Shown here in pieces: positions 54,741 to 62,313 of a stretch of 64,000 bases of DNA (position 1 is its first letter; the number at the start of each line of letters is the position of its first letter). The stretch is from the NCBI GenBank assembly GCA_003170135.1, contig PMZR01000124.1, forward strand, positions 1 to 64,000, given 5' to 3'. The DNA is from Acidobacteriota bacterium (GTDB lineage Bacteria; Acidobacteriota; Vicinamibacteria; Vicinamibacterales; Fen-181). The notes under the pieces were generated by a model that had not been told where the DNA came from, did no database searches, and worked only from the letters and a program-made list of their open reading frames with translations. Both the position numbers and the translations under genes were made by a program.

Positions 54741-54900
54741 GATTTGTAATGGGGTCTGGCACCTTTTCCTCCGTTCAAGATCTGCGTGAAAGACACAGGA
54801 AAACGATCGGGCGCCCGAACCGACGGGGCGTAACCAGCCAAAACCGGCCGTCGAAAATGAGACTGACATGAGAAATGGTGCCTGACCCCATTACGGATTT
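54741..54900. repeat. Inverted pair of a GGTGCCTGACCCCATTAC-type element
   Basis: Element A (54741-54767, read on the minus strand) and element B (54871-54900, plus strand) both read AAxxGGTGCC-x-GACCCCATTAC. They face each other across about 100 bp. This resembles REP pairs (REPINs). It lies directly upstream of the aldehyde dehydrogenase ribosome site. Confidence 0.6.
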
Positions 54901-55061: not shown

Positions 55062-55080
55062 TATAATCAGGGCAGGAGAG
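55062..55080 (+). promoter_or_regulatory. -10 and ribosome site for the A-type carrier gene
   Basis: TATAAT (55062-55067) is followed by AGGAGAG (55074-55080), 9 nt before ATG 55090. The -35 region is poor (ATCGTG). Confidence 0.5.
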
Positions 55081-55089
55081 CGCTATCCC

Positions 55090-55458
55090 ATGATTAACGT
55101 GTCGCAGACAGCAGCATCGAAAATCACCGATCTCCTGGCCGAGGAGAACAAGCAGAACAGCGGACTGCGCGTGTTCGTGCAGGGCGGCGGCTGCTCGGGC
55201 TTCCAATACGGCCTGATGATCGAAGACGCCCCCGGCGCGGCGGACCAGACCTTCGAATCGAACGGCATCAAGTTGTACATCGATCCCATCAGCATCCGGT
55301 ACCTCAAGGGGGCCGAGGTCGATTTCGTCGAGAATTTCGCGGGCGGCGGCTTCACCATCAAGAACCCGAACGCGGTCACGACGTGCGGGTGCGGCCAATC
55401 GTTCACCGTCGAGGAGAGCGACCAAGGCGAATCGCACGACAGTCATCACCACGCATAA
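55090..55458 (+). CDS. erpA: A-type iron-sulfur cluster carrier/insertion protein
   Basis: The 122-residue protein has the three conserved cysteines: one in GGCSGFQYGL and two in TTCGCGQSF (CxC). That is the IscA/ErpA/SufA family, which carries and inserts Fe-S clusters. Which of the three it is cannot be told, so the symbol is tentative. The C-terminal tail is His-rich (DSHHHA), unusual for the family. A Fur-rubrerythrin fusion gene follows by 80 bp. Confidence 0.88.
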   Translation: MINVSQTAASKITDLLAEENKQNSGLRVFVQGGGCSGFQYGLMIEDAPGAADQTFESNGIKLYIDPISIRYLKGAEVDFVENFAGGGFTIKNPNAVTTCGCGQSFTVEESDQGESHDSHHHA

Positions 55459-55538: not shown

Positions 55539-56516
55539 ATGGTCGATCTTCTTACGGACCTCGATGACCTGCGACCGGCCGGCGGCAAACGGTCGGGCAA
55601 GCGGGAACTGATTCTCGAGGTGTTCCTCCGCCAGGAGGGGCACCTGAGCGCCGAAGATCTCGTCGATCTGAGCCGGCGCGAGGATCAGCGAATCAGCCGG
55701 GCCACCGTCTACCGCACGCTGCAGTGGATGGTCGAAGCCGGCATCGCGCGAAAGGTCGACTTCGGCGAGGGGCGATTCCGCTTCGAGCATTCCTACCGGC
55801 ATCCGCGCCACTTCCACCTCATTTGCAAGGTCTGCAATCGATCGTCGGAGTTCCTCAGCTCCGATATCGAGGTGCTGATCGAGGAGATCGCGGCGGCGCG
55901 CAGTTTCTCGGCGAACCAGAGCGTCCTGCAGATCTACGGCACGTGCGAGCAGTGCCGGACCGGGCGCCCACCCACCGTCGATGGCGGCACGACCGAACTG
56001 CTCTTCGCGCGCGACGCGTTGCGGATCGCGATCGCGACCGAGCGCAGCGGGCTCGAGTTCTACTCGCGCGCGTCCAAATCCGCCAGGGACACGCGCGCGT
56101 GCGCGGTGTTCGAGCGGCTCGCCAACGAGGAGCGCGACCACCTGGCGAAGCTCGAGTCGCGCTACGAGAAACTCCTGGCGAAGGACCCGCAGCTGGAGGC
56201 GAGGCCGACCTTCCTCTTCTTCAAGGGCGCGGCCAACGGACTCTTCGCCGCGGGCGCCGAACAGGTGGCCCGTGGCATCACCGACTCGCAGGCGCTGGTG
56301 GTCGCGATGAAGTGCGAGCGGACGTCGTACCGGTTCTTCAAGCGCTACGGCGAGAAATTCGAGGATTCGGAAGGCAAGCAGATCTTTCTCGAAGTCGCCG
56401 ACGAGGAGCGTTCACACCTGGACCTGCTCATCCGCGAGGCGCGCGTGACGTCCCGTCGTCGCAACGCCAGGCCGCGCCGGCAGCCCGCGGGCCGGGTGCG
56501 GCGGGCACAGGCATGA
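55539..56516 (+). CDS. Fur-family regulator fused to a rubrerythrin/ferritin-like domain
   Basis: The 325-residue protein joins two domains. Residues 1-140 are a Fur winged helix (RISRATVYRTLQWMVEAGIA) with the metal-site strand HPRHFHLICKVCNRS and a CxxC pair CEQCRT. Residues ~155-300 are a rubrerythrin-type four-helix domain with diiron ligands in ERSGLEFYSRA, ANEERDHLAKLE, CERTSYRFF and VADEERSHLDLL. The tail is Arg-rich. The protein could regulate genes in response to peroxide or iron through the diiron domain. GGGGA precedes ATG 55539. Confidence 0.85.
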   Translation: MVDLLTDLDDLRPAGGKRSGKRELILEVFLRQEGHLSAEDLVDLSRREDQRISRATVYRTLQWMVEAGIARKVDFGEGRFRFEHSYRHPRHFHLICKVCNRSSEFLSSDIEVLIEEIAAARSFSANQSVLQIYGTCEQCRTGRPPTVDGGTTELLFARDALRIAIATERSGLEFYSRASKSARDTRACAVFERLANEERDHLAKLESRYEKLLAKDPQLEARPTFLFFKGAANGLFAAGAEQVARGITDSQALVVAMKCERTSYRFFKRYGEKFEDSEGKQIFLEVADEERSHLDLLIREARVTSRRRNARPRRQPAGRVRRAQA

Positions 56517-59478: not shown

Positions 59479-59571
59479 GGAAGCGCCTGGGAGTCGAACC
59501 CAGCCCCCCCGCAAACGCGGGGAGCGACCGATTTTGAAGACCGGGAGGGCCACCGGGCCCCGTTCGCTTCC
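59475..59571 (-). tRNA. selC: Selenocysteine tRNA (anticodon TCA)
   Basis: The 97-nt minus-strand RNA begins GGAAGCG and ends CGCTTCCG-CCA (acceptor). It has a 6-bp D-stem (GGGGCC with GGCCCT), anticodon arm CCGGT-CTTCAAA-ATCGG with anticodon TCA, a long variable arm (about 8 bp, CTCCCCGC with GCGGGGGG) and a T arm CTGGG/CCCAG. Length, long variable arm and UCA anticodon are diagnostic for tRNA-Sec. The CCA is encoded. The last acceptor pair (A8 with G) is a mismatch. Confidence 0.93.
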
Positions 59572-61498: not shown

Positions 61499-61632
61499 TT
61501 CTCGCCTGAATCCCGCAGCGGCAGCACGCTTGCACCCTCTGTATCGTGAACTCGCGACGTCTGGAGGGCGCAGCGGACGGAGTGCGCGGATTTTCCTCGA
61601 GATCCGGCGCGTTGCATTCAGGAGGGGCGGCC

Positions 61633-62313
61633 ATGGATCCGATGGAAGCCGAGAGCCTGCTCAGAAACGTCGATCGGCGCACGCAGCAAGTAGAGCAGAT
61701 TCTGCGAACGCTGCCGACGCTCGAGGAGGTGCGCACAGAGATCCGCAACGCCGTTCGGCCATCGCCCGGTGGCGAGAGCCTCCCGCAGACCGCCGCCAAT
61801 CTCGCCACCAGGGAGGACTTGACCGCGGCGACCGCTCCGCTCGCGACGCAGGGGCAACTGGCCGATGCGATCGCGCCGCTCGCGACGCAGGCACAATTGG
61901 CTGCGGCCATCGAACCGCTGGCGACGAAGAAGGAACTGGCCACCGCGGTTGAACCGCTGGCGACAAAGGTGGAACTGGCCGCCGCGGTTGAACTACTGGC
62001 TACGAAGGCGGAACTGGCCGCCGCGGTTGAACCGCTGGCGACGAAGAAGGAACTGACCGCCGCGGTCGAACCGCTGGCCACCCGCAGCGAGACGCAGTTG
62101 GCGATTCGTCAGGAGGGCGAACACACGCGCCGCCATTTCGACGTGGTGGCCGAAAGCCTGCGGGATGACATCAGGGTGATTGCCGAGAGCCAGGTCAGCT
62201 TGCAGAAGGGCGGCAAGCAGGACAGAAAAGAAATCGACGGGATCCTCAAGACACACGAGAAACGGATCGGCGGACTCGAGGCTGCCAACGCGCGGATGCG
62301 GAAGCGGCGTTAG
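61633..62313 (+). CDS. Tandem-repeat helical protein of unknown function
   Basis: The 226-residue protein has an N-terminal helical part (~1-55), seven to eight repeats of 13 residues (LATKKELATAVEP type; ~57-150) and a C-terminal helical tail with many Lys/Arg. Hydrophobic spacing suggests a long rod or coiled-coil stalk. GGAGGGG just upstream supports ATG 61633. No signal peptide or membrane segment is seen. Function unknown. Confidence 0.7.
   Translation: MDPMEAESLLRNVDRRTQQVEQILRTLPTLEEVRTEIRNAVRPSPGGESLPQTAANLATREDLTAATAPLATQGQLADAIAPLATQAQLAAAIEPLATKKELATAVEPLATKVELAAAVELLATKAELAAAVEPLATKKELTAAVEPLATRSETQLAIRQEGEHTRRHFDVVAESLRDDIRVIAESQVSLQKGGKQDRKEIDGILKTHEKRIGGLEAANARMRKRR
61801..62073 (+). 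repeat. 39-bp tandem repeat array, seven full units
   Basis: Units start at 61801, 61840, 61879, 61918, 61957, 61996 and 62035, with a degenerate eighth from 62074. The last four full units are nearly identical in DNA, the first three more diverged. Confidence 0.85.

Follow-up and report, generated by a model that had tools for sequence, protein, structure and literature searches.

Fur, the ferric uptake regulator (a transcription regulator that depends on ferrous iron), is among the best studied of bacterial regulators; normally it is a protein of ∼150 aa whose own metal sites do the whole of the sensing. What, then, would a Fur gain from a second metal centre built into the same chain? The question is raised by a gene for a 325-aa protein (55539..56516, + strand) in the stretch of DNA analysed here, which comes from a soil bacterium of the Acidobacteriota, is 64,000 nucleotides long and is called the window below. 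The original prediction read this gene as a Fur winged helix, with its Cys pair and metal-site histidines, joined to a diiron four-helix domain; the coordinates, the frame and the residues were all borne out. Judged from sequence, the protein is a fusion of two known families, Fur and a rubrerythrin-like one, and it takes the part of main Fur throughout much of one order, the Vicinamibacterales. In the open-access literature searched, we found no description of a Fur–rubrerythrin fusion.

Both halves lie in a single open frame that runs from ATG to stop. Pfam places FUR (PF01475) at aa 15–133 (E 3.9e-25) and, in the same frame, Rubrerythrin (PF02915) at aa 159–297 (E 3.7e-12). Both matches clear their curated cut-offs, FUR with 88.8 bits where 23.1 are required and Rubrerythrin with 47.2 where 22.8 are. 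A scan of genome contigs retrieved 34 full-length relatives, 59–98% pairwise identical, with the halves again in one frame; two of these (L031 and L038) have one stop codon in the aligned stretch, near one end of the match and outside both domains. Domain searching across genomes, which had been suggested as a check, showed that the fusion recurs both in the Vicinamibacterales and in other Acidobacteriota families. The 62 fusions compared below comprise 35 from the Vicinamibacterales (the window's and its 34 relatives) and 27 from the other families. Every one of the 62 joins both halves in a single frame, which rules out a frameshift artefact as well as the possibility, raised at the outset, that the halves are separate proteins. 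Chance juxtaposition or an assembly error is also ruled out, since dozens of independent assemblies share the architecture and the synteny. The window also carries a tRNA-Sec gene (59479–59571, − strand; Rfam, 60.5 bits), and its genome probably makes selenoproteins; in-frame TGA codons therefore call for care.

The N-terminal half comprises the Fur winged helix and dimerisation domain (aa 15–133; 55581..55937, + strand), and its best Foldseek hits are all Fur-family structures (e.g. 4rb1, E 9e-9). It resembles Fur (PF01475) in this fold, in its Fur-type recognition Arg and Glu, and in its structural zinc and regulatory metal sites. The structural Zn(Cys)4 site is formed by the pairs C96/C99 and C136/C139 (55824..55955, + strand), invariant in 62 of 62 fusions. 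The regulatory His/Glu site, which sits between the two Fur subdomains, has the ligands H35, E83, H91, H93, and E104 (55641..55850, + strand; codons starting at 55641, 55785, 55809, 55815, and 55848), assigned by alignment with C. jejuni Fur. These five residues are invariant in all 35 Vicinamibacterales proteins. Fusions from beyond the order keep them too, save that one sequence there is cut short and does not reach back to H35. Unlike Fur, the fusion adds a C-terminal diiron bundle of ∼150 aa, and its accessory third metal site is degenerate, with R90 and F92 in place of His/Asp.

PerR, the peroxide-sensing paralogue of Fur, has the same fold, and the fused domain suggests a possible oxidant response, as in PerR. 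We placed the PerR and Fur position numbering on the fusion by alignment, aided by the well-established ATVYRTL recognition helix. Asn61 and Asp104 mark PerR, while Arg and Glu at those positions mark Fur (PMC8638851). The equivalent of position 61 is Arg in all 62 fusions (R59 in the recognition helix of the window's protein; 55713..55715, + strand; 35 of 35 in the order and 27 of 27 outside it), and the equivalent of position 104 is Glu in all 62. A PerR identity is thus ruled out on both hallmark residues; any peroxide sensing by the fusion would go through the separate diiron site, unlike that of PerR. By its marker residues the Fur half is Fur-type, and by equivalog score it is a divergent Fur, its best NCBIfam iron-Fur equivalog match scoring 68.7 bits against a cut-off of 220.

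The Fur dimerisation domain ends with the last of the zinc cysteines; the C-terminal half begins ∼12 residues further on and is predicted to form a ferritin-like four-helix bundle (aa 152–309; 55992..56465, + strand; PF02915, AlphaFold2, and Foldseek matches to ferritin-like folds). With rubrerythrin and ferritin-like diiron proteins (PF02915, COG1633, and the MbfA ferritin-like domain) it shares the four-helix bundle and the pattern E...ExxH...E...ExxH, identified by alignment as E168...E198xxH201...E260...E290xxH293 (56040..56417, + strand; codons starting at 56040, 56130, 56139, 56316, 56406, and 56415). A loss of diiron ligands on alignment had been named as a result that would count against the fusion; within the Vicinamibacterales the opposite holds, all six being invariant in the 35 aligned proteins. 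The bundle differs from these relatives in being joined to a DNA-binding regulator and in two further respects. S263 (56325..56327, + strand) replaces the extra Glu that classical rubrerythrins carry in helix C (ExxE); this position is invariably Ser in the order, is Ser, Ala, Asn, or Thr in fusions elsewhere, and is never Glu in the 62. Nor is there a rubredoxin-like domain in the fusion: beyond C139 its cysteines are just two, C188 and C259, and they form no Cys pair motif. A classical rubrerythrin carrying YEFTE, the extra-Glu site, is encoded separately in the window's genome (L045); the comparison rests on this motif as read directly and on what is established for rubrerythrins, the alignment program having misplaced helix C of L045. 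Classical rubrerythrin identity is thereby ruled out for the bundle, and the "complete diiron four-helix domain" of the original prediction stands as regards six ligands in a four-helix bundle that is rubrerythrin-like, but not as regards a complete classical rubrerythrin.

The same residues bear on what the bundle might do. It could be a tethered small peroxidase or ferroxidase that keeps the surroundings of the regulatory site clear of H2O2 or O2 and of stray Fe(II), and so shields Fur but sends it no signal. Such a guard would be in keeping with the peroxide reductase activity known for rubrerythrins (PMC5114695), with the invariance of the six ligands in the order, and with a Fur half that is itself of a peroxide-insensitive type. 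Against it stand the absence of a rubredoxin domain or fused electron donor, the absence of the extra Glu in 62 of 62 fusions, and the separate classical rubrerythrin encoded in the genome; we regard a purely protective role as unlikely. Peroxide sensing by the fusion, as originally proposed, finds no support in the residues either, since the Fur half has the Fur-type pair R59 and E104 and the other half is without the extra Glu and the rubredoxin domain.

Structure prediction, which had likewise been proposed as a check, gave a confident four-helix bundle but not the relative placement of the two halves. Modelled alone by AlphaFold2, the bundle reached a mean pLDDT of 89.5 and a pTM of 0.85, and Foldseek matched it to ferritin-like proteins (2oh3, TMt 0.73) with probability 1.0 and E-values just above 0.001. 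The full-length fusion gave a mean pLDDT of 76.9 and a pTM of 0.53, which is weak overall; no interdomain contact is therefore predicted.

Outside the order, all six diiron ligands are kept in 17 of 27 fusions, and the other 10 all belong to one family, f36. Ten of the 11 fusions of that family are without the full ligand set, the exception (L077) being the first branch of the clade. The Fur sites are intact in all f36 fusions, and the whole bundle is still present after the ligands have gone. Mean identity of the bundle compared with that of the Fur half is 75% versus 78% in the Vicinamibacterales and 50% versus 78% in f36. Bundle identity thus falls together with the ligands, and we read this as selection that acts on the bundle through its diiron site: that site appears to be selected in most lineages, with relaxed selection on the bundle after its loss in f36. 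The ten f36 fusions that keep Fur without the diiron ligands also indicate that the diiron input is dispensable for the Fur half. The persistence of a whole bundle in that family would fit a mainly structural module, one that decides how the Fur dimer oligomerises or how stable it is, with iron binding secondary, and ferritin-like bundles do often self-assemble. Yet a mere scaffold would not be expected to hold its ligands invariant everywhere outside f36, nor to drop in conservation once they are lost, and this explanation strikes us as rather improbable.

How widely the fusion is carried can be judged from genome content. In a draw of 347 Acidobacteriota genomes, the full-length fusion was found in 35 of 35 from the window's order; three genomes from another order of the same class have Fur alone. 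More divergent fusions, those compared being about 29–43% identical to the window's protein, occur in ∼27 genomes of families f16, f19, f29, f36, f48, f53, f56, f61, and f63. A tree of the Fur half requires three changes, and a single clade of fusions is not rejected (p-AU 0.47). Spread to other phyla was looked for and rejected in the material searched, with no fusion seen in 297 genomes from the phylum of a Desulfovibrionaceae locus, 118 from that of a Zixibacteria locus, 77 from that of a Nitrospina locus, or the plasmids searched. Two MAGs titled Acidimicrobiia (L009 and L032) have the fusion amid the same gene order as Vicinamibacterales genomes; they are probably mislabelled bins. One genome of family f16 (G005) has a divergent fusion and a stand-alone Fur together (L082 and L132).

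In the window's own genome (5.8 Mb, with a stated completeness of 100% and contamination of 5.6%) the fusion is the single match to the Fur family; no DtxR-type C-terminal domain was found in it, and it has one clear Rrf2 regulator. Among 60 genomes of the order, 56 have a Fur whose frame is 313 aa or longer, which we took as the fusion and confirmed for the genomes common to these 60 and the 347-genome draw; in 34 of the 60 this long-frame Fur is the sole Fur-family match. The remaining four comprise one genome without any match, two with a short Fur only, and one in which the gene is split at contig ends. Genome content thus supports the fusion as the main, and often the only, Fur-family protein of the Vicinamibacterales.

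The neighbourhood adds a further link to iron. An Fe–S carrier gene had been placed directly upstream, and it was confirmed as an erpA/iscA-type (A-type) gene (55090..55458, + strand; NCBIfam ErpA NF010147, 132.5 bits where 117 are required) that lies 80 bp from the fusion in the window. It is directly upstream of the fusion in 34 of the 34 loci having that flank, with a gap of 3–115 bp. A −10-like TATAAT element, read directly, precedes erpA (55062..55067, + strand), and by eye a TATAAT/TATACT-like hexamer stands before erpA in most relatives, whereas the gap that separates the two genes shows no such element; a consensus scan found no full sigma-70 site. Given the constant adjacency and a −10-like element before erpA with none in the gap, the two genes probably form one operon. 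Part of this adjacency is general synteny of one order, because genes for a PHP-domain protein, an ABC ATPase, a HAD protein, and cold-shock proteins also recur downstream in many Vicinamibacterales loci. Outside the order the neighbours differ: a NuoI-like [4Fe-4S] ferredoxin-type protein adjoins the fusion in two loci (L071 and L083) and is encoded nearby in a third (L077).

This arrangement invites the idea that the bundle is an iron buffer or chaperone, which would supply the Fur site or the ErpA Fe–S pathway with iron. Besides the probable co-transcription with erpA, MbfA (an iron exporter) and encapsulin ferritins are among the curated ferritin-type matches, all sub-threshold. A two-iron site, though, offers little storage capacity, and in those loci from outside the Vicinamibacterales that were examined erpA does not adjoin the fusion; we think a chaperone role quite improbable.

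As to possible operators, no E. coli-type Fur box occurs in the window; a scan of the genome with the E. coli-type pattern gave 16 weak sites compared with two for a control pattern, and no iron genes were recognised at the four Fur-box loci that were opened. The sequence before erpA showed no palindrome that seemed conserved. Two inverted copies of GGTGCC(T/A)GACCCCATT (54748–54763, − strand; 54877–54892, + strand), ∼110 bp apart, sit between an aldehyde dehydrogenase gene and erpA and have the look of a palindromic intergenic repeat, but two copies are not rare by chance. Strong long hairpins of unrelated sequence lie just before the fusion start in four relatives (L010, L013, L019, and L028; fold z-scores about −4.5 to −7.8); a start-codon hairpin is not conserved among the relatives and is not significant in the window (z −0.5). 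Further downstream, a predicted protein (61546–62313, + strand) contains a run of near-identical PLATKxELxxAVE-type repeats, probably a coiled-coil array.

We favour, with a probability of roughly one half, the reading that the protein is the main Fur of the Vicinamibacterales with a built-in ferritin-like diiron domain as a second, iron/oxidant input. With Fe(II) bound in its regulatory site, the Fur half would repress iron genes, and the bundle would bind two irons; loading or oxidation of the bundle (Fe(II)2 versus Fe(III)2, by O2 or H2O2) would then adjust dimer geometry, iron loading, or DNA affinity, so that in genomes without PerR and without DtxR a single switch would respond to iron as well as to oxidant. 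Coupling of diiron oxidation to DNA binding, the core of the original prediction, is a plausible hypothesis. We advance more tentatively, as less likely than not, the specific version in which the order's only Fur switches DNA binding with Fe(II) and with O2/H2O2 through the diiron centre, replacing a separate PerR and doing so with no PerR-style histidine oxidation.

Known systems offer partial parallels. BRUTUS (PMC12022348) and the bacterial hemerythrin redox sensors (PMC9388753) would share the principle of a diiron bundle coupled as an iron/O2 sensor to an output domain; their ligands are hemerythrin-type and their output domains are others, not Fur, and we claim no homology. The [FeFe] hydrogenase–rubrerythrin fusion of Clostridium perfringens (PMC11926857) likewise joins a rubrerythrin module to a protein of another kind, but it is an enzyme that reduces H2O2 with H2 and is not a transcription regulator.

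A Fur joined to a second metal centre thus extends across a whole order and several other Acidobacteriota families, with no other Fur found in many of the genomes. Family f36, with its decayed diiron ligands, provides a ready natural control for what the diiron domain adds to the gene switch. One molecule may read both iron supply and oxidation in these bacteria; if that is true, iron and oxidant would be integrated by a single protein, without a separate PerR.
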